A stretch of 64,000 nucleotides of DNA from Pseudomonadota bacterium (GTDB taxonomy: Bacteria; Pseudomonadota; Gammaproteobacteria; Steroidobacterales; Steroidobacteraceae): positions 186,001 to 250,000 of the forward strand of contig JBBCGI010000001.1 of assembly GCA_037200975.1 (NCBI GenBank), in the 5' to 3' direction. Position numbers and translations under genes: made by a program. Numbering within the stretch: position 1 is the stretch's first letter; every line of letters starts with the position of its first letter. The notes under the pieces were generated by a model that saw only the letters and a list, made by a program, of their open reading frames with translations, did not search any database and had not been told where the DNA came from. Shown piece by piece: positions 15,888 to 30,210 of this stretch.

Positions 15888-16580
15888 TTACCCGATTTGA
15901 GGACCAACTTGGGCATAGCGCGTGGGGTCGGAAATTCCTGCCGCGACAAAGCCTTCGCGGCGCAGCCGGCAGGAGTCGCAGCGGCCGCACGCGCGGCCAC
16001 TCGCATCGGCCTGGTAGCAGGAAACCGTGAGCGCGTAGTCGACACCCAAACCCGCGCCCACCCGGATGATCTGCGCCTTGCTCAGATCGATGAGCGGCGC
16101 GCGAATCCTGAGGCTTCCGCCCTCCACGCCCGCTTTTGTCGCGAGGCCGGCGAGCGCCTCGAACGCCGCGACGAACTCGGGGCGGCAATCCGGATAACCC
16201 GAATAGTCCACGGCATTCACACCGATGTGGATCTCGGAAGCCTTCAGGACCTCGGCCCAGGCGAGCGCCAGCGACAACATGATGGTATTGCGCGCCGGCA
16301 CGTAGGTGACGGGAATTCCGGGCGCGCTGGTGGTCGGTACGTCGATGGATTTGTCGGTGAGCGCGGAGCCACCGATCCGCGCAAGGTCGACGTGCATGAT
16401 GCGGTGTTCGCGTGCGCCTGACGCATGCGCGATTCGCGCGGCCGCGTTGAGTTCGGCCTGATGCCGCTGGCCGTACGACACCGACAAGGCGTAACACTCG
16501 AGCCCGGCGGCGCGCGCCATCGCCAGCACGGTGGCGGAATCGAGTCCGCCTGACAACAACACGACTGCACGCGTGATCAT
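15888..16580 (-). CDS. queC: 7-cyano-7-deazaguanine synthase
   Basis: The 230-residue product has the PP-loop [15 protein letters not shown] (residues 8-22). The C-terminal zinc cluster is formed by Cys residues in VSCYQ and ACGRCDSC. QueC converts 7-carboxy-7-deazaguanine to preQ0 with ATP and ammonia, in the queuosine pathway. Length matches the family (about 220-235). It is 43 bases downstream of queE, whose product feeds it, and just upstream of tRNA-Lys. Confidence 0.97.
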
Positions 16581-16623
16581 CCGCAGACCGCCCGGTAATT
16601 ACGAGAATTGCACCCCGGCACCG

Positions 16624-17277
16624 CTACTTCCCTGGCACGTTGCCCCACAGGACTTTGTGGAGCTGGAGTTGAAAGCGTACGGGGAGGCGGTCTTCGAGGA
16701 TCCAGTCTGCGAGCTGGCGGGCGGGCAGCTGTTCGGCGCTGGGTGAAAACAGCACGGTGCAGCGCTCGGGGAGTTTGAGCGCGCTCAGCCGCTCGCGACT
16801 CCATTCGTAGTCGGCGCGATCGCAGATCACGAACTTGATCTGTTCCTCGCCGCGCAGCAGCGACAGCTCCTCGTAACGATTGCGTTTTTCTTCGCCCGAT
16901 CCGGGGGTCTTGATATCCACGACGCGGTTCACGCGGGGGTCCACGCCGCCGAGCGGCATGGCGCCGCTGGTTTCGAGCGAGACGTGGTAGTTGGCGTCGC
17001 AGAGCCGCGTGAGCAGCGGCAGGCAGTTCTTCTGCGCCAGCGGCTCGCCGCCGGTCACGCACACGTAACGCGGCGTGAAGCTGGCGACACGCGCCAGGAT
17101 TTCATCGATCGTCATCCACTCCCCGCCGTGAAACGCATAGGCCGTATCGCAGAACTGGCAACGCAGCGGGCAGCCCGTGAGCCGCACGAACACCGTGGGA
17201 AAACCCACGGTGTCGGCTTCGCCTTGCAGCGAATGGAAAATTTCAGTGATCTTCAGCCGTGCCGGATCATTTTCCAT
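16624..17277 (-). CDS. queE: 7-carboxy-7-deazaguanine synthase (radical SAM)
   Basis: The 217-residue product has the radical-SAM cluster motif GCPLRCQFCDT (CX3CX2C, about residues 35-42) and the glycine-rich SAM motif VTGGEPL. It begins with the substrate-binding element KITEIFHSLQGE. QueE turns 6-carboxy-tetrahydropterin into 7-carboxy-7-deazaguanine. It overlaps the 3' end of cpoB by 11 bases and precedes queC, so the three are probably one transcript continuing from tol-pal. Confidence 0.97.
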   Translation of the reverse strand: MENDPARLKITEIFHSLQGEADTVGFPTVFVRLTGCPLRCQFCDTAYAFHGGEWMTIDEILARVASFTPRYVCVTGGEPLAQKNCLPLLTRLCDANYHVSLETSGAMPLGGVDPRVNRVVDIKTPGSGEEKRNRYEELSLLRGEEQIKFVICDRADYEWSRERLSALKLPERCTVLFSPSAEQLPARQLADWILEDRLPVRFQLQLHKVLWGNVPGK

Positions 17278-18037
17278 TCGACATGCGTTTCAGCCGCTCG
17301 GCGGCCAGCGTCGCGGCTTCGGTTCCCGGGTAACGCTTCTGCACGTTTTCGAGCGTGTCGCGCGCCTCGGCCGTCTTGCCGAGCGCGGCCTGGGTGAAGC
17401 CGATCTTGACCAGAGCGTCCGGCGCCTTGCGCGAATCCGGCCAATCCGCGATCACGCGCTGGAATGCGCCGATCGCATTCGGGTACTCGCGGTTGACGTA
17501 GTACGCCTCGCCTAACCAGTACTGCGCGTTGCTGGCGAGCGGGCTCGCCGGATAGGTGCTGACAAAGTTCTTGAACCCTGCGATGGCGCGCTGGTAGTCG
17601 GAACCTTTCAGCGCGTTGAACGCGGCGTCGTAACTCGCCTGCTCGCCGCCGCCCGCGGAGACACCACCCGGAGGCGGCACCACCGGCGTGGCGGAACCGG
17701 CGTTCGAACCGGCGACGCCGCCCAGTGTTTCGAGCGCGGCGATGCGTTTCTCGAGGTCGCCGTACAACGTGCGCGTTTGCGTCTTGCCGCCCTCGCTCTG
17801 GTTCTGCAGCACCTCGACTTCACCGCGCATGGCGCGCAGCTCGGCCTGCAGCGCGTCGATGCGTTGCGCCATCTCGATCAGGCTCTGGTTGGTCACCACG
17901 CGCTCGATGCGCTGCACGCGCGCGTCGAGATCGTTCATGCGGATGTACACCGGATCTTCTTCCGGCGACACCGCGCAACCGATGAGCGTATACGACCCCG
18001 CCGCCACGGCGCACAGGGCCAGCAGTCGCTGTCTCAT
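17267..18037 (-). CDS. cpoB: Cell division coordinator CpoB (YbgF)
   Basis: The 256-residue product has an N-terminal signal, a trimerising coiled coil (about residues 35-100) and a Gly/Pro linker. Three TPR-like repeats at the C-terminus (about 135-250) include YDAAFNALKGSDYQRA and AQYWLGEAYYV. CpoB coordinates Tol-driven outer-membrane constriction with peptidoglycan synthesis. ATG 18037 has GAGG nine bases upstream and is preferred to the ORF start at 18067. The signal ends in LIGC, which reads as a lipobox, whereas E. coli CpoB is soluble in the periplasm. It follows pal by 45 bases. Confidence 0.95.
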   Translation of the reverse strand: MRQRLLALCAVAAGSYTLIGCAVSPEEDPVYIRMNDLDARVQRIERVVTNQSLIEMAQRIDALQAELRAMRGEVEVLQNQSEGGKTQTRTLYGDLEKRIAALETLGGVAGSNAGSATPVVPPPGGVSAGGGEQASYDAAFNALKGSDYQRAIAGFKNFVSTYPASPLASNAQYWLGEAYYVNREYPNAIGAFQRVIADWPDSRKAPDALVKIGFTQAALGKTAEARDTLENVQKRYPGTEAATLAAERLKRMSNGK

Positions 18038-18082
18038 GACGAACCTCGATGCAGTCCGGGTGATCACGTCACTTCCCGGGAA

Positions 18083-18595
18083 TCACTTCAGATAGACGAT
18101 TTCGACGCGGCGGTTCGCGGCATAGGCCTGCTCGGTGCTGCCCACCTCGGCCGGACGCTCCTCGCCGTAGCTCACGGTCGCGAGCTGCACTTCAGCGACC
18201 CCTTGCAGCAACAGCGCACGGCGCACCGACTGGGCGCGTCGCTCACCGAGGCCGATGTTGTACTCACGCGAGCCACGCTCGTCGGCATGGCCTTCGAGCC
18301 GCACCTTCTGGCTGGGATTCTTCGACAGATAGGCCGCGTGCGCCGCGACCACCGACTGCGAATCCGCGCGGATATCGGCACGATCGAGATCGAAGTACAC
18401 GATGCGCTTCGACAGCAGCTCACCGCTGGGGCCCTGCGATTCGGTGCTGTCCGTGGTGGCGCCGGAATTGTCGACACCGCTGGTGTCGGCGGTGGACTGC
18501 GGTGGCGGCGCGGGCTGTTCGACCGGCTTGGCCGGGCAACCGGCGAGAAACGCGGCCGTGGCGAGAACGAATACTGTCGAGACGAAATTTTTCAT
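18083..18595 (-). CDS. pal: Peptidoglycan-associated lipoprotein Pal
   Basis: The 170-residue product has a lipobox LAGC (Cys near residue 20), a Pro/Ser/Thr-rich linker and an OmpA-like domain (about 60-170). Motifs are VYFDLDRADI, EGHADERGSREYN (diaminopimelate binding) and ANRRVEIVYLK at the end. Pal is anchored to the outer membrane, binds peptidoglycan and TolB, and completes the Tol-Pal system. It is 20 bases downstream of tolB. Confidence 0.98.
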   Translation of the reverse strand: MKNFVSTVFVLATAAFLAGCPAKPVEQPAPPPQSTADTSGVDNSGATTDSTESQGPSGELLSKRIVYFDLDRADIRADSQSVVAAHAAYLSKNPSQKVRLEGHADERGSREYNIGLGERRAQSVRRALLLQGVAEVQLATVSYGEERPAEVGSTEQAYAANRRVEIVYLK

Positions 18596-18615
18596 TGCTA
18601 CCTACTCCTTGAAAC

Positions 18616-19926
18616 TCACGGAAGAAACGGCCCCCACACCGGTTCACGTACTTCACCCGCGTCGGCATTGAGCCGCAGCGAGGTTTGACCATCGATCGAA
18701 ATCGTTTGCAGCACGCCCTGCCCGCGTTCGCGGCCGGCGAGGATCACCATGTCGCCGTTGGGGGCGAAGCTCGGTGACTCATCCTGGCGGCCCTTCGACA
18801 ACACGCCGAGCGAACCGCTGGCCACGTCCTGGATGGCGATGCGATAGGCACCGTCATCGAGCGTCAGCACGGCCAGCTTCTTGCCGTCGGGCGAGATGCG
18901 CGGCCGCGCATTGTACGCGCCCGTGAAGGTGACGCGGCGTGGCCGCTCGCTGCTGCCGAGCGTCAGCTTGTAGACCTGCGGATTGCCCGAGCGGTCGGAG
19001 GTGAAATAAAGTCCGGTGCCGTCCGGCGTGAACACCGCTTCGGTGTCGATGGACGGATCGTCGGTCAGCCGCGTCAACCCCTGCGTGCCGAGATCGAGTA
19101 GATAGATATCGAGGTTGCCGTTGGTGCCGGACAAGGTGAGCGCCAGCTTCTTGCCGTCGGGCGACCACGCCGGTGAGCCGTTGATGCCGGCGCGCGCCGA
19201 TACCATGCGCCGCTGGCCGGTGCGTACCTGCTGCACGTACACGGCGGACACGCGCCGTTCGAACGACACGTATGCGAGCCAGTCGCCGTCCGTGGACCAG
19301 GCCGGCGACATGATGGGCCGGTCCGACTGCAGGATCATGCGCGGGCCTTCGCCGTCCGCATCCGCGACGATCAGCTGGTAACGCTGCGCCGGCGCGCGCC
19401 CGTCGACCGATACGTACGCGATGCGCGTGGCGAACGCGCCGCGCACGCCGGTGACTTTCTCGTAGATGGCATCGGCGACGCGATGCGCGCCGTTGCGCAG
19501 GTTGGCGGCCTTCACGGTCCATTTCTGCCCGAGCACGCGCTGGCCGGTGAGCACGTTGACCAGCTCCACGTCGATGGCAATGTCGCCGTTGCCGACCGCA
19601 GTGAGGCGGCCGACCGCGACGTAATCGTTGCGCTGCTGCTTGAAGGCCGCGACGTCGACGTCGGCCGACGTGGTGGGCATCGACAACAGGTCCGCGCGCG
19701 GCATGCCCTTGAAGCGGCCGCTGCTTTCGAGATCGCGCTGGACGATGGCTGCGACATCGATGCCGCCATCGGCGGGCACCGCGCGCGCGAACGGCACGAC
19801 CGCGATCGGAATCGGATCGGTCACGCCCTGCGTGATTGTGAGCTTGAGCTGGGCAAAGGCCGGGCTCGCCGCGCCGAGCGCGGCCAGTGCGAGGAAGGTC
19901 GCGAGTTTTTTCATGCGGTTACTCAT
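18616..19926 (-). CDS. tolB: Tol-Pal system beta-propeller TolB
   Basis: The 436-residue product has a signal peptide (ending SPAFA), an N-terminal alpha/beta domain and a C-terminal six-bladed propeller. The propeller is visible as repeats such as SPAWSPDGKKLA, RPRISPDGKKLAV and SPSFAPNGDMVI. TolB is periplasmic and binds Pal and the TolA C-terminus. ATG 19926 overlaps the tolA stop by 8 bases; ATG 19914 is a possible alternative that still leaves a complete signal. Both fit translational coupling. Confidence 0.97.
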   Translation of the reverse strand: MSNRMKKLATFLALAALGAASPAFAQLKLTITQGVTDPIPIAVVPFARAVPADGGIDVAAIVQRDLESSGRFKGMPRADLLSMPTTSADVDVAAFKQQRNDYVAVGRLTAVGNGDIAIDVELVNVLTGQRVLGQKWTVKAANLRNGAHRVADAIYEKVTGVRGAFATRIAYVSVDGRAPAQRYQLIVADADGEGPRMILQSDRPIMSPAWSTDGDWLAYVSFERRVSAVYVQQVRTGQRRMVSARAGINGSPAWSPDGKKLALTLSGTNGNLDIYLLDLGTQGLTRLTDDPSIDTEAVFTPDGTGLYFTSDRSGNPQVYKLTLGSSERPRRVTFTGAYNARPRISPDGKKLAVLTLDDGAYRIAIQDVASGSLGVLSKGRQDESPSFAPNGDMVILAGRERGQGVLQTISIDGQTSLRLNADAGEVREPVWGPFLP

Positions 19927-20821
19927 TCGGCGCGAATGTTAGCTCCAAAATGCGTTCGAACGGCACACCCGGAGGCGGCGTCGGCAGTGGTGAGGCGTTA
20001 TACACCGCGCGTTCTACCGACTCGCGCAGCGCATCGTCGCCACCGGTGCAACCATTCACGTGAACCGAGGTGACTTCACCACCCGGGACCTGGCTGACCG
20101 ACACACTACACTGGACGCCGGCCCGTGCCGAGGGCGGACGAATCCACGCCCGGGTGATGCGCGCGACGATCGCGGCATGCCAGCGGTTGGCCTCGTCGCT
20201 GTTGCTCGCGGCATTGGCGCGCTCCTCGGCCTCCATACTGCGGCGCAATTCAGCCTCTTGCGCCAGCCGCGCCTTTTCGTCGGCGGCTTTCTTGGCGGCC
20301 GCGGCATCGTCGGCCCGCTTCTTCTCGGCGGCCTTCTTGTCAGCGGCCGCCTTCAAAGCCGCGGCTTTCGTGGCGGCCTGCTTCTCGACCTCGAGGCGCT
20401 CCGCTACTTCGCGTTCTTTCAATTCCTGCGCCTGCCGCTGCTGTTCCTGCTTCACCTGCTCGCGTTTCTGCTGCTCGGCTTTTTCCTGCTCGAGCTTTTC
20501 GGCGGCGCGGCGCTCTTCTTCCTGCTTGCGTTCGATCTCGGCCGGATCCGGCTTGGGCGGGCCCTGCTCTTCCACCGGCACGGGTTCGGGTTCCGGCACC
20601 GGCTCGGGCGGCGGCGGTTCGGGCGCGGGTGTCGTCGAGGCGCCCTTCAATGTGCGCTCGTCGACTACCGTGGCTTCGATGGCCAATACCGTCTCGGGCG
20701 GCCGGTGTTTCCACGTGAACCAGCTGTAGACGGCGGCGGCGACGATGCCGGCGTGCAGCAGTACCGACAGCGCGATCGCGCGCCAGCTGCCGGTGGTGAC
20801 GGACTTTGAACGGGGCGGCAT
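19919..20821 (-). CDS. tolA: Tol-Pal system protein TolA
   Basis: The 300-residue product has one N-terminal transmembrane helix (about 13-33). A Pro/Glu-rich segment follows, then a long Lys/Glu/Ala helical domain (about 85-200) that spans the periplasm. The compact C-terminal domain (about 210-300) has the TonB-like pattern RITRAWIRPP and ILELTFAPNE. It links TolQR energy to TolB and Pal. It starts 5 bases after tolR. The low-complexity helical domain explains the long shadow frames on the other strand. Confidence 0.97.
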   Translation of the reverse strand: MPPRSKSVTTGSWRAIALSVLLHAGIVAAAVYSWFTWKHRPPETVLAIEATVVDERTLKGASTTPAPEPPPPEPVPEPEPVPVEEQGPPKPDPAEIERKQEEERRAAEKLEQEKAEQQKREQVKQEQQRQAQELKEREVAERLEVEKQAATKAAALKAAADKKAAEKKRADDAAAAKKAADEKARLAQEAELRRSMEAEERANAASNSDEANRWHAAIVARITRAWIRPPSARAGVQCSVSVSQVPGGEVTSVHVNGCTGGDDALRESVERAVYNASPLPTPPPGVPFERILELTFAPNE

Positions 20822-20826
20822 CGCGC

Positions 20827-21282
20827 TCAGCGGGCTCGCTTCTTGTCCGGCGCTTCGGTGACGAAGCCGACCTTGTCCGCGCCCGCGCGCTGCAGGATGG
20901 TCATCGCCCCAACTACTTCTCCGTAGGCCACTCGATAGTCCCCGCGCACCAGCACCACGGTTTCTGGCGCACGGCGCAACACCGCGGCCGCCTGCGCTTC
21001 GACCACGGCCGCGGTCAGCGGTTCAGTCTCGGGCTTGTGGTAATTGAGGAAGAGACGCCCGGCTTCATCGATGCTGAGGATGATGGGTTTGACGTCCTTC
21101 ATCATCTCCGGCGGGATCGGCTTCGCACCGGCCTTGGGCAATTGCACCTTGATGCCTTCGGCCAGCAGCGGCGCGGTGATCATGAAGATGATGAGCAGAA
21201 CCAGCATCACGTCGATGTAGGGCACCACGTTGATCTCGCCCATCAGGCGCCGCTTGCGGCGCGAATTGTGTTGCTGGGCCAT
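20827..21282 (-). CDS. tolR: Tol-Pal system protein TolR
   Basis: The 151-residue product has a basic N-terminus (RRKRR), then INVVPYIDVMLVLLIIFM. Asp24 at the start of the single transmembrane helix is the conserved proton-responsive residue of the TolR/ExbD family. The periplasmic domain ends with a basic tail. It works with TolQ as the proton motor for TolA. The gap to tolQ is 3 bases. Confidence 0.98.
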   Translation of the reverse strand: MAQQHNSRRKRRLMGEINVVPYIDVMLVLLIIFMITAPLLAEGIKVQLPKAGAKPIPPEMMKDVKPIILSIDEAGRLFLNYHKPETEPLTAAVVEAQAAAVLRRAPETVVLVRGDYRVAYGEVVGAMTILQRAGADKVGFVTEAPDKKRAR

Positions 21283-21285
21283 GGG

Positions 21286-21960
21286 TCAGACTCCGCGTCC
21301 GGCATACCGCTGCAGGATGGTCGAGAACTCTTCCATGAACGCGTCGTAGCGCAGCTCGAGGCGGCTCAGCTTGTCGGCAAAGCGGTTGTAGGCGATCACC
21401 GCGGGGATGGCGGCGAACAACCCGATCGCCGTGGCGATCAACGCCTCGGCGATGCCGGGAGCCACCATCTGCAGCGTGGCCTGCTGCACGCCGCCGAGCG
21501 CGACGAAGGAATTGAGGATGCCCCAGACCGTGCCGAACAGGCCGACATACGGACTGGTGGAGCCCACCGTCGCGAGCGTGGCGAGGCTTTCCTCGAGACG
21601 TTCGATCTCCTTGAGCTGGCCGACGCGCATCGCGCGGCGCGCGCCCTCTAACAACTGGTCCGACGGAATATTGCCCTGCTTGAGGCGCGCGAATTCGCGG
21701 AAGCCGAATTCGAAGATGCTCGACATGCCGGTGGCGCCGCCGCGCGTCTCGATCTGCCGGTACAGGGCGGTGAGATCGCCGCCCTTCCAGAAGCTCGCCT
21801 CGAAGGACTCGGCTTCATCGCTGGCCCGCGACAGCAACGCGCGCTTGCGGAAAATGATGGTCCACGACATGAGCGAGGCCAGCAGCAACAGGCCCATGAC
21901 CACCTGCACCACCGGGCTCGCTTGCAGCACCAGCCTGACTATCGACAGTTCATTGTCCAT
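21286..21960 (-). CDS. tolQ: Tol-Pal system protein TolQ
   Basis: The 224-residue product is of the TolQ/ExbB/MotA type. Three transmembrane helices lie at about 15-37, 130-150 and 163-185, with a cytoplasmic loop of about 90 residues between the first two. The pore-lining region reads GLFGTVWGILNSFVAL and IAEALIATAIGLFAAIPAVIAYN. It forms the stator with TolR. It follows ybgC by 21 bases and heads tolQRAB-pal-cpoB. Confidence 0.98.
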   Translation of the reverse strand: MDNELSIVRLVLQASPVVQVVMGLLLLASLMSWTIIFRKRALLSRASDEAESFEASFWKGGDLTALYRQIETRGGATGMSSIFEFGFREFARLKQGNIPSDQLLEGARRAMRVGQLKEIERLEESLATLATVGSTSPYVGLFGTVWGILNSFVALGGVQQATLQMVAPGIAEALIATAIGLFAAIPAVIAYNRFADKLSRLELRYDAFMEEFSTILQRYAGRGV

Positions 21961-21981
21961 CGAACACCTTCAAAACCATGT

Positions 21982-22377
21982 TTAGGAAGCCGGCCGCACG
22001 AAATCGGGCAACGGCCGCGGCCGGAATGTCTTCGCATCGACGCAGGCGACGCGTACTTCGCCCTCGGCCAGCAGCGTGGCGTCGGCGCGCGTGACCGTCT
22101 GCGTGAAGCGGATCGACGCGCGGCCTTCGGGCACCGGTACACAACTGACCAGCAGCTCATCATCGAGTCGCGCCGGCCGCCGATAGTTCACTTTGACCTC
22201 GACGACCGCGAATACGAACCCCTGGGTTTCGGCCAGTTCCATCTGCGAATGACCCAGCGAGCGCAGCCATTCGGTGCGCGCGCGTTCCATGAATTTGAGG
22301 TAGTTAGCGTAGTAGACCACCCCACCGCCGTCGGTATCTTCCCAGTAGACGCGCGTGCGCCAGGAGAATTCGCTCAT
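21982..22377 (-). CDS. ybgC: Acyl-CoA thioesterase YbgC
   Basis: The 131-residue product is a hotdog-fold 4-hydroxybenzoyl-CoA thioesterase type protein. It has VYWEDTDGGGVVYYANY near residue 10, where the first Asp of DTDGGGV corresponds to the catalytic residue. YbgC usually precedes tolQ in Proteobacteria and acts on acyl-CoA, with links to phospholipid synthesis. It is 10 bases downstream of ruvB. Confidence 0.97.
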   Translation of the reverse strand: MSEFSWRTRVYWEDTDGGGVVYYANYLKFMERARTEWLRSLGHSQMELAETQGFVFAVVEVKVNYRRPARLDDELLVSCVPVPEGRASIRFTQTVTRADATLLAEGEVRVACVDAKTFRPRPLPDFVRPAS

Positions 22378-24692: not shown

Positions 24693-26666
24693 GTGCACAA
24701 CCTCCATTCCTGTTCGCCTGAAATCCACGCTTCGATAAACGCGCATGCCGCGATGCTCGCCGGCTGGGGAGTACCGCGCGCGGCGATCGAGCGCGCGTCG
24801 GAAGCGGCCGTCATCGTGGCGTCGCTGACCGAAGACGCGGGGCTCGCCGCCGCCCTGCTCGCACAGGTGGCCTTCAGTGCGGAGGCCGAAGAATCGCGCG
24901 AAGTGGAGCTGCATTTCGGTCCGGCCGTGAGCGCGCTGGCGCGCGAACTCGCGCATTTCGGCGACATCCGCCTGACAGCCGCGTCGGCCGCGTCTCACCA
25001 CCTCGAACCCGCGCAGGCCGAAGCCCTGCGCAAGATGTTGCTCTCGGTGGTCAGCGATCCGCGCCTGGTGCTGGCGCGCCTCGCCCGCCAGCTGGTGGAT
25101 CTGCAGGCGTCCAAGGACGGCCACGCCGAGACGCGCGAGCGGCTGGCACTCGAAACGCGCGAAGTGTTCGCGCCGCTCGCGAACCGGCTGGGCCTGTGGC
25201 AGCTCAAATGGGAACTGGAGGATTTTGCCTTCCGCTTCCTGCAGCCGGACGACTATCGCCGCATCGCCGGCGCGCTGGCCGAAAAACGCGCCGACCGCGA
25301 ACGCTACATCGCGGAGCTGTGCCGCACGCTCGAGGACATGATGCGGCACGCCGGCATCAGCGCCGAGGTGAATGGCCGCCCGAAGCATATCTACAGCATC
25401 CACCGGAAGATGGAACGCAAGCAGCTGACCTTCGAGCAGGTGTTCGACCTGCGTGCCGTGCGCATCGTCACGGCGACGGTGGCGGATTGCTACGCGGTGC
25501 TGGGACTCGTGCATGGCCGCTACACCTACATTCCGGGCGAGTTCGACGACTACATCGCGACGCCGAAGGACAACTTCTACCGCTCCATCCACACCGCCGT
25601 GTTAGGACCGGAAGCCAAGGTGGTCGAAGTGCAGATCCGCACGCGCGAGATGCACGACCAGGCCGACCTCGGTCTCGCGGCCCATTGGAAATACAAAGAG
25701 GGGCGCTACATGGAGTCGCGCCCCCACGACGTCACCTACGATCGCAAGATCGAGTGGGTGCGCAAGCTGCTCGAGCCGACGCACGGCGACAAGGACTTTC
25801 TCGATGAGGTACGGGCCGAGCTGTTCGAGGATCGCGTCTACGCGTTGACCCCGAAGGGCGAAGTGGTCGATCTACCGCTGCACGCGACCCCGCTCGATTT
25901 CGCCTATCACGTGCACACCGACCTGGGGCACCGCTGCCGCGGCGCGCGCGTGAACGGCCGCATCGTGCCGCTGACCCGGGCGCTGGCCAACGGCGAAATC
26001 GTCGAGATCATCACGCACAAACACCCGCAGCCGAGCCGCGACTGGTTGTCCGAAACGCAGGGGTTCCTGGTCTCGCCGCGCAGCCGTTCCAAGGTGCGCG
26101 CCTGGTTCCGGAAGTTAGACGAGGAAGGTGCGCAGGCAGCGAGTGTGCCGGCTGAGCCGGCCGCGGCCGTGCCGGCACCCGCGCCGCCGCGCCGCAAGGC
26201 GCCGACCCGCAAAAGCGCGCGTTCGCCGGTGATCCTGGGAGGCGTCGAAGACCTGCCCGTAAGTCTGGCGCGCTGCTGCGCGCCCGTGAAACCCGAGCCC
26301 ATCGCCGGCTACGCGACCATCGGTCGCGGCGTCACCATTCATCGGGCGGATTGCCCGGGTTTGAAACGCATGAGTGCGCCGCGCCCCGACCGGTTGATAG
26401 CCGCGGAATGGGCCGACGCCGCGCAAACCCAGCCAGTAACGCTCAATATTGTCGCGATCGACCGACAGGGACTGGTCCGGGACATCGGCGATCTGCTCGC
26501 GAGCGAAAAAATCTCCATCGAAATGATGCACACCACTACCGACCGGGCGCAGTCGACGGCTACCATCGACGTGCGAGTGGCGATTGACGGTGTCGAGCAT
26601 CTGACGCGTTTACTGCAGCGTATCCGGAAGGTGGGAAGTGTCCTTTCGGTGCGCCGCTCGGGTTAA
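24693..26666 (+). CDS. relA: RelA-type (p)ppGpp synthetase
   Basis: The 657-residue product has an N-terminal region in the place of the HD hydrolase domain but without the HD metal motif. The synthetase domain carries EFDDYIATPKDNFYRSIHT; the EFDD (about residues 283-286) is the ExDD form found in synthetase-only RelA, while hydrolase-capable SpoT has RxKD. VEVQIRTREMHDQADLG follows, then a TGS domain (RVYALTPKGEVVDLP), a Pro/Ala/Lys-rich linker, a zinc-finger-like Cys segment (ARCCAPVK) and a C-terminal ACT domain. It makes (p)ppGpp on ribosomes stalled by uncharged tRNA. GTG 24693 and ATG 24753 are both possible starts, with no clear ribosome site. Confidence 0.94.
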   Translation: MHNLHSCSPEIHASINAHAAMLAGWGVPRAAIERASEAAVIVASLTEDAGLAAALLAQVAFSAEAEESREVELHFGPAVSALARELAHFGDIRLTAASAASHHLEPAQAEALRKMLLSVVSDPRLVLARLARQLVDLQASKDGHAETRERLALETREVFAPLANRLGLWQLKWELEDFAFRFLQPDDYRRIAGALAEKRADRERYIAELCRTLEDMMRHAGISAEVNGRPKHIYSIHRKMERKQLTFEQVFDLRAVRIVTATVADCYAVLGLVHGRYTYIPGEFDDYIATPKDNFYRSIHTAVLGPEAKVVEVQIRTREMHDQADLGLAAHWKYKEGRYMESRPHDVTYDRKIEWVRKLLEPTHGDKDFLDEVRAELFEDRVYALTPKGEVVDLPLHATPLDFAYHVHTDLGHRCRGARVNGRIVPLTRALANGEIVEIITHKHPQPSRDWLSETQGFLVSPRSRSKVRAWFRKLDEEGAQAASVPAEPAAAVPAPAPPRRKAPTRKSARSPVILGGVEDLPVSLARCCAPVKPEPIAGYATIGRGVTIHRADCPGLKRMSAPRPDRLIAAEWADAAQTQPVTLNIVAIDRQGLVRDIGDLLASEKISIEMMHTTTDRAQSTATIDVRVAIDGVEHLTRLLQRIRKVGSVLSVRRSG

Positions 26667-26681
26667 CTTAAGCCCGAAGGG

Positions 26682-26701
26682 CGGTCCCCCAGCCGGGGCC
26701 G
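26682..26701. terminator. Weak stem-loop after relA
   Basis: Bases 26682-26688 and 26695-26701 form a 7-bp GC stem with one G-T pair, 16 bases after the relA stop. There is no adjacent T-run; a T-rich stretch occurs about 60 bases later (26755-26774). It may be a weak terminator or part of the leader of the next gene. The 127-base gap otherwise holds nothing recognised. Confidence 0.3.
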
Positions 26702-26793
26702 AAACGTGACGTGTTGCGACGCCCAAAAGAGCCGTTTCGCGTTTACTCACAAGGGATTTTTCCTAGTTTTTTTCCGGGGTAACAAGACCGCTC

Positions 26794-28728
26794 ATGCGTG
26801 TCCTGCTGGTCGACCATGACTCAGAGGCTCTCGAGGCCATTGCGCGTGCCATTCGTGGGGTGCTCGAACTCGACTGCGTGACCAGCAAGGGCGATGCGCT
26901 CCTGCTGCTGCGCCAGAACACGTATGACGTGCTCATCGCCTGTGAGCGCGCCATCGACGGTTCGGGCCTGGACCTGCTCGGCCGCACGACCCGCACCGCG
27001 GTTCCGCTCAAGCGCATCTTCGCCGCGGCTCCCGAGCGGTTGCAGTTGTTAGGCCCGCGGCTCGCGCCGTTCAAGGTGCAGCGGACGATCAACTACCCCA
27101 TCGATCTCGAAGAGTTGTGGCTGGCCATCGCGCAGGTGACCGGCGGGCCCGACGACGGGACCGACGGCACCATCGAACGCGTGGTGCTCGACGAGCGCGG
27201 CATTCCTTCCGCCGGCAGCGTGCCGCGCGGTCCGATTCCGCCGCGTCCACCCGCGCCGTTGTCAGCCGCATCACCGCTGCCGGTTGCCGCCGCACCGCAG
27301 CCCGGCACGTCGGCATCGGGTCGATACGCCATCGCGCGCCTCGCACAAGCCCAGCCGGAACCGCCGCCGCGTGCTCCGCCGCCGCGCTCCATTCCGGGCC
27401 CGGCCGCGCGTGCCTCCGCGCCGGCGCAGATGCGTGCGCCCGCAGCACCCATGCAATCCATTCCGCCGATGCCGCTGAGCGCGGCGGCGCCGCGCGACAT
27501 GCTGCCGGCGTGGACTCCCGAAGCGCCGTCCGAAGACGATTTCGCTGCCATCGCGGCGCAGGCGCGGCTCGGCGTGCAGCAGAAGGTCGTGGATGAAGCC
27601 TCGCGCCGCAAGCGGCAGCGTCTGTTCACCGCCTGCGGCATCGCCGTCGTGGTGGCGGGCGCCCTCGTGTTCCTGATCGAGAAGTTCTACGACCCCGCCG
27701 CGCGCGCGCGCGAACAGGTCATCACTGCTGAAAAGACGCGCATGTCGGAGGAGCAGAAGGTCACCGACAACCTGATGATGATCGAGGTCGACATCGAGCA
27801 GGCGATCATGAACAACGACTTCGACACGGCACGCCGCGAGCTCGCGACGCTGGTCGAAAAGGCGCCCGACCATCCGCGCCGCGAGTTCCTGCAGGCTTCG
27901 ATCGACCGCGCCGTCGAACTCGCCAAGTTGTCGCCCCAAGGCCCGGACAAGGTTGCGGACAAGGGCGTTGCGAAGACGTCCGTGCCGACGCAGGCGGCGG
28001 TGCTGCCCACGGCCGGCGAACCACGCAACAGCGCGCGCCTGCGCCCCGCGGAGCGCGCCGTCGATCGCACGCCGGAACGAGTCGTGTCACGAGCTCCGGA
28101 ACGCACCGTCGCACAACGCACGCTGCGCGAGGCACCGTCCACGCTGCCGCGTACGTATGGCGCGCCGATCGGCGAGGCGCCGCGCGAAAGCATTCCGCTC
28201 AACGCGCCCATCAATGCCGCACCCACCACGACGATGCGGCGCAATGACAATGCCTTCAGCGGACGCACCGTCGAGGCCAGCGACAACTCCGCGACGCGCT
28301 CTCCCACTCCGGCGCCCGCCACGCGCTACCCGGCTGCACCGCCTCCCGGCGCGGCTGCGAATTCCGTCGTCACGCCTGCACCGGCCGCCGCCGGTTCCGC
28401 CGCGGTGAACATGCCGCCGGTCGCGGCGCCCGCGCCGGCACCGCCCGCCGCCACGGATGTCGTGCTCGCGAAAATCGTCAAGCGCGTATCCCCCGTATTG
28501 CCGGGCGGACTTCCGCGCAAGGCAAAGGGCTACGTACTGGTCCAATACAACATCACCGAGGCGGGTCGGGTCAGTGATGTCGAGGTACTGGAATCGGAGC
28601 CCGCCGGCACCTTCGACGATGCCGCGCTGGACGCGGTGCGCAAGTGGGTCTATGAGCCGCGCAAGGAAAACGGCGTGGCCGTCGCGTCGCCGGCGAAAGC
28701 GAAGCTGGTATTCGACGCGTCTAACTAG
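26794..28728 (+). CDS. TonB-type energy transducer with N-terminal degenerate receiver domain
   Basis: The 644-residue product is a fusion. Residues 1-115 look like a response-regulator receiver: LLVDHD with D7, a YDVLIAC strand and DLEEL near the end. The phospho-acceptor Asp is replaced by Cys50 and the conserved Lys by Tyr101. A Pro/Ala-rich stretch follows (about 140-250), then basic residues and one transmembrane helix (about 277-297). A periplasmic region contains a helical segment and a long Pro/Ala/Arg-rich spacer. A TonB C-terminal domain (about 560-644) ends the protein, with KGYVLVQYNITEAGRV, FDDAALDAVRKW and YEP. This topology puts the receiver in the cytoplasm and TonB_C in the periplasm. 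No ExbB/ExbD is adjacent. The role is unknown. Confidence 0.85.
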   Translation: MRVLLVDHDSEALEAIARAIRGVLELDCVTSKGDALLLLRQNTYDVLIACERAIDGSGLDLLGRTTRTAVPLKRIFAAAPERLQLLGPRLAPFKVQRTINYPIDLEELWLAIAQVTGGPDDGTDGTIERVVLDERGIPSAGSVPRGPIPPRPPAPLSAASPLPVAAAPQPGTSASGRYAIARLAQAQPEPPPRAPPPRSIPGPAARASAPAQMRAPAAPMQSIPPMPLSAAAPRDMLPAWTPEAPSEDDFAAIAAQARLGVQQKVVDEASRRKRQRLFTACGIAVVVAGALVFLIEKFYDPAARAREQVITAEKTRMSEEQKVTDNLMMIEVDIEQAIMNNDFDTARRELATLVEKAPDHPRREFLQASIDRAVELAKLSPQGPDKVADKGVAKTSVPTQAAVLPTAGEPRNSARLRPAERAVDRTPERVVSRAPERTVAQRTLREAPSTLPRTYGAPIGEAPRESIPLNAPINAAPTTTMRRNDNAFSGRTVEASDNSATRSPTPAPATRYPAAPPPGAAANSVVTPAPAAAGSAAVNMPPVAAPAPAPPAATDVVLAKIVKRVSPVLPGGLPRKAKGYVLVQYNITEAGRVSDVEVLESEPAGTFDDAALDAVRKWVYEPRKENGVAVASPAKAKLVFDASN

Positions 28729-28767
28729 ACGGTTGCGCCGCCGTCATCGCCGCCGCGCGCATCGAAA

Positions 28768-30210
28768 CTATCGGTTGATGTTGTCGATGGCGCGCTTGTC
28801 GGCCGCGAGGGCCGCTTCATGCAGCGCTTCGGACAGGGTCGGATGCGCGTGGATCGTGCGCTGCAGATCTTCGCTGCTGGCCGAATACTCCATCGCGAGC
28901 ACCGCCTCGGCGATCAGTTCGCCCGCCATCGGTCCGATGATGTGTACGCCCAGGATTTCGTCGTCATCCTGCGCGGCGATCAGCTTCACGAAGCCCGCGG
29001 TCGCTTCCATCGCCCGCGCGCGGCCACTGGCCGCGAAGGGGAACTGTCCGATCTTGTAGGGGCGTCCGCCCGCCTTCACCTGCTCTTCCGTCAGGCCCAC
29101 CCAGGCAATCTCCGGGTGCGTATAGATGACGGAAGGCACGGTGTGGTAGTTCGTGTGGCCATATCTGCCGGCGATCAGGTCGCCGACCATGACGCCCTCT
29201 TCCTTGGCTTTGTGCGCGAGCATCGGGCCGCGCACGCAATCGCCCACCGCCCAGACATTCTCGACGCTGGTCTTGCAGTGATCGTCGACCTTGATGAAGC
29301 CGCGTTCGTCGAGCAACACGCCGGTGCCGTCGGCCAGCAGGTTCTTCGTGAACGGCTTGCGGCCCACGGCCACGATGAGTTTGTCGACGGTGATCGTCTG
29401 GTTGCCGGTGGCGTCCGAGTAGCTGACCTCGACCGAACTACCGGAGATCTTGGCGCCCGAAACTTTCGCGCCGAGCTTGATATCCAGGCCCTGCTTCTTG
29501 AAATGCCGTGCGGCTTCCTTCGCCAGACCCTGGTCGGCCACCGCGAGGAACGTATCGAGCGCTTCGAGCACCACGACTTCGCTGCCGAGACGGCGCCACA
29601 CACTACCGAGCTCGAGGCCGATGACCCCGGCTCCGACCACGGCGAGTTTCTTCGGCACGGCGTCGAAATCGAGCGCGCCCCAGGAATCGACGATGTTCTT
29701 GCCGTCGAACGGCATGCTCTTGAGCTCGGTCGGGATCGAGCCGCTCGCCAGCACGATGTGTCTGGCAGTGAGCGTTTCGACCTTGCCGTCGTGCGCCGTG
29801 AACTCGACCTTGCCTTTGCCGAGTAGTTTGCCGTGACCCTGCAGCGGCGTGACACCCGCGCCCTTGAGCAGCATGGCGATACCGGTGGTGCTGGCCTTCA
29901 CGATGCCCGTCTTGCGCTTCTGCATCTGGGCGACGTCGAATTCCACGCTGCCGACCTTGATGCCGTGCACGGCGAGCTCTTCTTTCGTCTTGTGATACAG
30001 CTCGCTCGATTCGAGCAGCGCCTTCGACGGAATGCAGCCGGCGTTCGTGCAAGTGCCACCAAAGACGGCAGTGCCGTCCTTGTTCTTCCACTCGTCGATG
30101 CAGGCGACCTTGAGTTTGTTCTGGCCGGCGCGGATGGCGGCGGGATAACCGGCGGGACCGCCACCGATGACTATTACATCGAATTCTTTGGCACCGAGTT
30201 CATTGGCCAT
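28768..30210 (-). CDS. lpdA: Dihydrolipoyl dehydrogenase (E3)
   Basis: The 480-residue product has FAD motif VIVIGGGPAGYPAAIRA, redox-active disulfide GGTCTNAGCIPSKALL (CX4C), NAD motif VVGAGVIGLELGSVW, and the C-terminal dimer motif HAHPTLSEALHEAAL with catalytic His. It reoxidises dihydrolipoamide of the 2-oxoglutarate dehydrogenase complex and probably other complexes. It follows sucB by 9 bases in a sucA-sucB-lpdA unit and is convergent with the TonB-receiver gene. Confidence 0.98.
   Translation of the reverse strand: MANELGAKEFDVIVIGGGPAGYPAAIRAGQNKLKVACIDEWKNKDGTAVFGGTCTNAGCIPSKALLESSELYHKTKEELAVHGIKVGSVEFDVAQMQKRKTGIVKASTTGIAMLLKGAGVTPLQGHGKLLGKGKVEFTAHDGKVETLTARHIVLASGSIPTELKSMPFDGKNIVDSWGALDFDAVPKKLAVVGAGVIGLELGSVWRRLGSEVVVLEALDTFLAVADQGLAKEAARHFKKQGLDIKLGAKVSGAKISGSSVEVSYSDATGNQTITVDKLIVAVGRKPFTKNLLADGTGVLLDERGFIKVDDHCKTSVENVWAVGDCVRGPMLAHKAKEEGVMVGDLIAGRYGHTNYHTVPSVIYTHPEIAWVGLTEEQVKAGGRPYKIGQFPFAASGRARAMEATAGFVKLIAAQDDDEILGVHIIGPMAGELIAEAVLAMEYSASSEDLQRTIHAHPTLSEALHEAALAADKRAIDNINR

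Follow-up and report, generated by a model that had tools for sequence, protein, structure and literature searches.

The window is a 64,000-nucleotide stretch of contig JBBCGI010000001.1 from a gammaproteobacterium of the family Steroidobacteraceae (assembly GCA_037200975.1, positions 186,001 to 250,000; positions below are those of the window). Positions 26794-28728 (+) form a single 644-codon open frame, with no stop inside, that joins a receiver-like domain, one transmembrane (TM) helix and a TonB C-terminal domain (TonB_C) on one chain. From N to C terminus, a receiver fold (residues 1-116) is followed by a Pro-rich linker, the TM helix, periplasmic helices, a second linker and TonB_C (Table 1). 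The gene starts 127 bp behind a relA-type gene and, with relA upstream and a convergent lpd-type gene downstream, has no adjoining kinase gene. It is a phospho-dead member of a receiver-TM-TonB_C group that extends through the order.

The C terminus matches TonB_C in Pfam with 53.7 bits (cut-off 24.6; residues 576-640). The full-length AlphaFold model matches TonB C-terminal structures, namely 6i97_D (1.6 Å, 35% identity), a chain of a FoxA complex that we take to be a TonB fragment, and 1u07_B. Overall, this model has a low predicted local distance difference test (pLDDT) score, 63.4, and its linkers are disordered; the confidently predicted parts are the receiver, TonB_C and periplasmic helices 301-379, with lower values near 301-320. 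One TM helix is placed at residues 277-295. Because a basic stretch precedes it, about 276 residues including the Pro-rich linker are predicted to be cytoplasmic. The large cytoplasmic part, the single TM helix and the TonB_C end had all been proposed in a first-pass annotation of the sequence, and all three are borne out.

Residues 1-125 alone match Response_reg (PF00072) with an E-value of 0.027 and 15.1 bits, below the cut-off of 30.2. All 16 members of the family alignment, which comprises the window protein and 15 others, match this domain at E ≤ 1, the best at 5.8e-9 (L041, the single locus returned by a peptide-pattern scan of the genome contigs, is uncounted, its protein being identical to that of L042). 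Searched against the PDB, the 16-member profile finds the HupR receiver first (2jk1, 2vuh; 3e-9 to 4e-9, about 40 bits), which differs from the window domain in being the receiver of a transcription regulator and in having the phospho-acceptor Asp (2jk1). Moreover, AlphaFold with the family alignment predicts a (βα)5 fold (pLDDT 90.6, predicted template modelling score 0.85), and among the 50 PDB matches listed by Foldseek the titles are nearly all receivers or response regulators. They include the pseudo-receiver of FrzS (2gkg, 2i6f; TM-score 0.79 to the model), which shares the receiver fold with the window protein. FrzS works without phosphorylation and, to our knowledge, has no TonB domain.

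Aligned with wild-type HupR (2jk1), the window protein has Cys50 where HupR has the Asp and Tyr101 where it has the Lys, as the first-pass annotation had proposed along with the receiver-like N terminus itself. Of the catalytic set, the window receiver keeps the first acid, Asp7, and has His8, Cys50, Ala78 and Tyr101 at the remaining sites. The same losses run through the family: the first acid is present in 15 of 16 receivers, the second in none (His 11, Gln 3, Arg 2), the phospho-acceptor Asp in none (Cys 14, Thr 1, Gly 1), Thr/Ser in none, and Lys in none, Tyr replacing it in all 16. Since every catalytic residue except the first acid is lost, normal phospho-receiver function is predicted to be impossible for this domain. 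In contrast, Glu51, Asp55, Gly56, Ser57, Gly58, Leu59, Tyr101 and Pro102 are invariant. A check for conservation of Cys50 thus gives a mixed answer: the residue itself is not invariant, being replaced by Thr in L047 and Gly in L049, and Glu51 and Tyr101 are. A thiol or redox switch, in which Cys50 would sense in place of phosphorylation, draws on the 14 Cys-containing members and on PDB entry 5u8m, by its title a receiver-derived redox sensor. Both exceptions, however, keep the whole layout and Cys50 is less conserved than its neighbours, so that a Cys-based mechanism appears very unlikely.

Despite these losses the receiver is the most constrained part of the protein. In pairwise comparisons among three members of the genus, its ratio of nonsynonymous to synonymous substitution rates (dN/dS) is the lowest in every pair (0.07, 0.14 and 0.17), against 0.18-0.42 for TonB_C, 0.20-0.58 for the linkers, 0.29-0.52 for the periplasmic helices and 0.27-0.43 for the juxtamembrane segment; the TM helix, with only 22 codons, gives noisy values of 0.53-1.69. 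The same domain order is found in eight uncut relatives of 561-674 residues. A random frame, or two genes joined in error, would fit the single-protein Response_reg match below the Pfam cut-off; yet the order common to other genomes, the low dN/dS of the receiver and its confident fold reduce this explanation to a negligible one. A frameshift or assembly fusion is ruled out by the same-order relatives together with dN/dS, and the frame stands as a real single protein, as first annotated.

Table 1. Coordinates of the window protein, its domains and neighbours, and same-layout systems elsewhere
Feature	Position	Strand	Basis or remark
Pseudo-receiver domain, residues 1-116	26794-27141	+	Receiver profile matches, AlphaFold, Foldseek, dN/dS
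Cys50 codon, at phospho-acceptor Asp site	26941-26943	+	Alignment with HupR
Glu51 codon, invariant in family	26944-26946	+	Glu in 16/16
Tyr101 codon, at conserved Lys site; invariant Pro102 follows	27094-27096	+	Tyr in 16/16
Cytoplasmic Pro/Ala-rich linker, residues 117-245	27142-27528	+	pLDDT mostly <50
Juxtamembrane segment, residues 246-276, short helix 248-260	27529-27621	+	AlphaFold helix
Single TM helix, residues 277-298, without His	27622-27687	+	Hydropathy, AlphaFold
Periplasmic helical segment, residues 299-380	27688-27933	+	AlphaFold helices 301-339, 343-356, 363-379
Periplasmic Pro/Ala-rich linker, residues 381-555	27934-28458	+	pLDDT mostly <50; dN/dS 0.46-0.58
TonB C-terminal domain, residues 556-644 (Pfam 576-640)	28459-28725	+	PF03544 3e-14; structural matches
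relA-type gene (HD_4, RelA_SpoT, TGS, ACT), upstream of window gene	24861-26666	+	Pfam
lpd-type gene (pyridine nucleotide-disulphide oxidoreductase), convergent neighbour	28768-30210	-	Pfam
tolA (19919-20821), tolR (20827-21282), tolQ (21286-21960)	19919-21960	-	Pfam TonB_2/TolA, ExbD, MotA_ExbB; 4.8 kb away
P0002	C1 2,200.7-2,202.8 kb		Receiver-like domain, TM helix without His, TonB_C
P0003	C1 1,573.7-1,575.8 kb		Receiver-like domain, TM helix without His, TonB_C
Histidine kinase, receiver-receiver protein, TM-TonB_C protein sets, other families	L244:414-5063, L245:416-5061, L247:7-3823		

A search of 200 family genomes gives 27 with a match to the receiver domain at 1e-3, 15 of them strongly (16 places, at least 66 bits) and 12 weakly (21-27 bits). 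At the level of the order, 13 of 396 genomes match strongly, all inside the family, and in a profile search of the class 24 of 368 other genomes reach 1e-9, with 55 bits as the best score. The class-level matches listed are mostly intact receivers, with two degenerate ones. The first, L075:254-2638 (-), reads AER..DGDGL at the Asp region, and the rest of its frame resembles an NtrC-type regulator by eye; the second, L091:1156-1725 (-), lies in a 190-residue frame and has a YP motif resembling the one in the window protein. Within the family, Pfam finds TonB_C in 10 of the 16 copies, the window protein included. In two copies (L046, L053) a contig end cuts the gene short of this domain, and the other four are without it: L044 (with a TM helix), L054 (receiver only), L055 (no TM helix) and L056 (TM helix, not beside relA). 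As the assemblies are mostly drafts, single cases of this kind may be assembly faults. Read by eye, a segment like the juxtamembrane one is kept in L055 and L056.

The gene also recurs beside relA, which the first-pass annotation had named as support: a relA match adjoins the gene in 14 of the 15 other loci (the exception being L056), and the convergent lpd gene is found in 10 of the 11 relA-adjacent loci with downstream sequence (the exception being L047). In the window, no promoter-like or terminator-like site is found within 26500-28900 (shuffled sequences give 0.2 and 1.8, respectively), and co-transcription with relA is therefore possible. A pseudo-receiver that binds RelA or responds to its product, tying the starvation response to the envelope, would agree with this neighbourhood and with the short gap to relA. 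However, RelA/SpoT matches occur in 195 of the 200 family genomes and the strong domain match in only 15. Further, 40 relA loci were scanned for Met-start frames of at least 100 residues, one of them from the carrier genome G026 and the other 39 from genomes lacking a strong match: in the 39, no such gene lies between relA and lpd, which weakens an exclusive relA link, and in G026 the domain is present as a 120-residue receiver-only frame. With one copy also located elsewhere and vertical descent accounting for the shared neighbours, RelA is quite an unlikely partner. The (p)ppGpp link proposed by the first-pass annotation draws solely on the neighbourhood, which common descent explains equally well.

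The same layout is found twice more in this genome, which holds 13 TonB_C matches: P0002 (714 residues) and P0003 (697 residues) are further receiver-like-TM-TonB_C proteins. On its own sequence, neither protein gives a Response_reg match (Pfam, E ≤ 1); the receiver becomes visible through a profile of relatives. Like the window protein, both combine a receiver-like domain, one TM helix without His, helical repeats and TonB_C; unlike it, their receivers keep the Asp without the acidic pair, and kinase genes adjoin them. Behind P0002 lie the genes of a Ser/Thr kinase that begins with a receiver (22.4 bits, below cut-off) and of a HATPase_c protein, and a receiver-Ser/Thr kinase of this type also adjoins P0002 relatives in G034 and G004. 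Downstream of P0003 come genes for a histidine kinase (Hpt, HATPase_c), a CheY-like receiver and CheX, and relatives in G084, G044 and G028 have the same module beside them; the relative in G028 is a 392-residue frame with no Pfam match at 0.001. These kinase-flanked loci were chosen from the matches rather than at random. At 1e-12, 61 of 100 family genomes contain a match to P0002, in some cases through the TonB_C part alone. A kinase partner, as suggested in the first-pass annotation, is thus found beside proteins of the same layout and is missing next door to the window gene itself.

Two side observations concern the surroundings of these genes. The P0002 set (L205:697-6633; G000:C1 about 2,200.7-2,206.6 kb), together with L204:10200-12543, lies near GspA-like AAA/peptidoglycan-binding and GspB-like (T2SSB) proteins, and GspA- and GspB-like frames are similarly near P0002 relatives in L211 and L212 (by eye). 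In L213:5546-10797, P0003, the Hpt/HATPase kinase, the CheY-like receiver and CheX make up a compact, chemosensory-like module in which a TonB-like protein is the membrane component.

At 1e-15, 192 of the order's 392 genomes contain the P0002-type receiver. Seventeen genomes selected for their matches, from nine further families of the order, hold 26 such receivers: 12 share one frame with TonB_C, 12 are adjacent to a same-strand TonB_C frame no more than 1.5 kb away, and 2 show neither arrangement. Four adjacent pairs were examined, and in all four a receiver-receiver protein is followed 14-19 bases on by a TM-TonB_C protein. The preceding gene is a histidine kinase by Pfam in three of them (L244, L245 and L247), while the fourth begins near a contig start. 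Some members of the order thus have the layout split into three genes, for a histidine kinase, a regulator and a TonB-like protein. Fusions with two receivers, a TM helix and TonB_C are seen in family f7 (L248:7648-10305 and L249:6508-9240; the frames extend upstream, to 953 and 983 codons). Both carry a threonyl-tRNA synthetase-like gene nearby, judged by its sequence start, and a fully degenerate first receiver.

Separate and fused proteins differ in their first receivers. In each of 16 receiver-receiver proteins, 10 from the order and 6 from other orders of the class, the first receiver is complete, with both acids, Asp, Thr and Lys; TonB_C lies one gene away in the 7 whose neighbours were viewed. 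Both acids and the Asp are likewise present in 22 of 22 other receivers. In contrast, the first receivers of the two fused f7 proteins have none of the catalytic residues, with Ala for Asp. The P0002-type receivers, aligned in 30 rows that hold P0002 and not P0003, all have the Asp, and 25 of them have Lys or Arg; the first-place acid is absent throughout, and Glu stands at the second place in 3 of 30. In the separate regulators (L244-L247) the second receivers have also lost the acidic pair and resemble the P0002 type. Consequently, the contrast between intact and degenerate holds for first receivers only, and a rule by which all receivers are intact when separate and degenerate when fused is too wide.

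An orthologue in genus g14 carries a second, P0002-type receiver where the window protein has its Pro-rich linker (hhalign probability 99, E 4.6e-18), which suggests that the window protein may once have had a second receiver too. The resulting order is the same as that of a receiver-receiver regulator joined to its TonB_C gene, and it is therefore tempting as a clue to origin. A descent of the window receiver from the first receiver of such regulators is kept as a possible origin, but it gained no support from the tree, where the window's receivers separate as a clade with a branch of 3.13, and in profile scores the first receivers of receiver-receiver proteins (38-52 bits) overlap other receivers (up to 46 bits). 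The second-receiver tree leaves the g14 copies unplaced (branch 2.38).

The closest described layout is that of GltG (PglI) of Myxococcus xanthus, given in Table 1 of PMC3169522 as an FHA-TM-TonB_C protein of 640 residues with TonB_C at 570-637. GltG shares with the window protein a cytoplasmic signalling domain, one membrane span, a Pro-rich stretch and TonB_C; it differs in having FHA instead of a receiver and in belonging to the gliding machinery, where a two-hybrid interaction with the motor protein AglR is described (PMC3169522). In the window protein no FHA match is found in Pfam at E ≤ 1, the domain having a receiver fold instead. GltJ (AgmX), a second protein of this kind, has cytoplasmic domains. 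It is described as a membrane protein with a TonB-like C terminus and compared with TonB (passages of PMC9389320 and PMC8262864); the TonB-like C terminus is common to it and the window protein, and those passages mention no receiver for GltJ. The NCBIfam model myxo_SS_tail scores 19 bits on the window protein, with 40 needed. A passage of PMC8262864 describes TonB proteins as generally without a cytoplasmic domain and the TonB-like SjdR as having a putatively cytosolic N-terminal extension. The first-pass statement that no TonB with this layout had been described therefore needs narrowing: with GltG the general layout is already in print. No publication on receiver-TonB_C proteins was found among the open-access papers listed, a search that left subscription journals mostly outside and did not extend to database annotations.

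On balance, we favour the reading that the window protein is a trans-envelope adaptor that acts independently of phosphorylation and is not pulled by ExbBD or TolQR. This reading builds on the observed anatomy, the lost catalytic residues, the selection on the receiver, its retention in the four relatives without TonB_C, and the occurrence of same-layout proteins beside kinase genes. The receiver fold, no longer accepting phosphate, would offer a fixed docking surface to a cytoplasmic partner, located around Glu51, the DGSGL loop and Tyr101-Pro102. The single TM helix would act as membrane anchor, and TonB_C, on its Pro-rich periplasmic arm, would reach a partner in the envelope, which is probably a TonB-box-like peptide belonging to an outer-membrane protein. 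By this route the adaptor may position or gate an envelope complex from the cytoplasmic side, or signal the state of the envelope inwards, in either case presumably without proton-motive coupling.

The TM helix bears on that last point. The histidine of an SHLS-type motif is needed for coupling. This motif is described as common to the TM helices of TonB and TolA (passage of PMC10907165). Seven helices of the same genome served as controls, from five short TonB-type proteins, the TolA of the window and L140; the TonB_C proteins L142, L145, L146 and L151 were excluded by choice as they looked secreted or unusual. A TM His is present in 6 of the 7 controls, in 0 of 13 distinct proteins of the window family (14 rows, L041 and L042 being identical) and in 1 of 33 of the P0002 group, there at the helix end. 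The D-box pattern taken from the same source (PMC10907165) is absent after the TM helix in all family members, yet it is present in only 2 of the 7 controls and is therefore not usable as a test. The missing His thus speaks against ordinary ExbBD or TolQR coupling and makes control of outer-membrane energy transfer, the role proposed in the first-pass annotation, doubtful.

The corresponding alternative is a regulated energy transducer, in which ExbBD or the nearby TolQR would drive the TonB arm and a partner on the pseudo-receiver would switch it. The TolQ, TolR and TolA genes lie 4.8 kb off in the window, and the genome has 8 ExbB-type matches. The absence of the His in all 13 distinct family proteins and of an ExbB or ExbD gene directly adjoining the gene in the window makes this alternative rather unlikely. 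Several observations nevertheless weigh against the phosphorylation-independent adaptor. TonB_C fits classical TonB structures well, as that of an energy transducer would, and the strict S/T-xxx-H spacing occurs in only 2 of the 7 control helices. Further, L140 (G000:C1:3808461-3809358) is a TonB_C protein whose TM helix lacks His and which starts 1.2 kb behind an ExbB-type match. P0002-type relatives keep the Asp and mostly Lys or Arg, and phosphate-dependence of those relatives is therefore possible. Finally, a common origin with the kinase-linked receivers is unsupported by the tree, given the separate clade on its long branch.

Two observations stand beside this comparison. L140 may represent a non-classical motor system. 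The tol genes of the window belong to a cluster at 15888-22377 (-) with the order ybgC-tolQ-tolR-tolA-tolB-pal plus queE/queC-type genes, in which tolQ, tolR and tolA were identified by Pfam and the others by eye.

For the order as a whole we propose tentatively, with somewhat less than even confidence, that a receiver-receiver regulator, once phosphorylated by a histidine kinase, acts on the TonB_C protein of the next gene, Ser/Thr-kinase systems likewise having TonB-like outputs. Elsewhere the same parts would be fused, with some or all of the catalytic residues lost and the signal passed on by binding alone; the window protein would be such a fused form, with no kinase gene left beside it. 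TonB-type proteins are generally viewed as force rods with hardly any cytoplasmic part. If the recurring group holds true, cytoplasmic signalling could act directly on envelope or outer-membrane proteins without transcription, and the contrast between intact first receivers in separate proteins and degenerate ones in TonB fusions would offer a way to test the effect of fusion on phospho-signalling.

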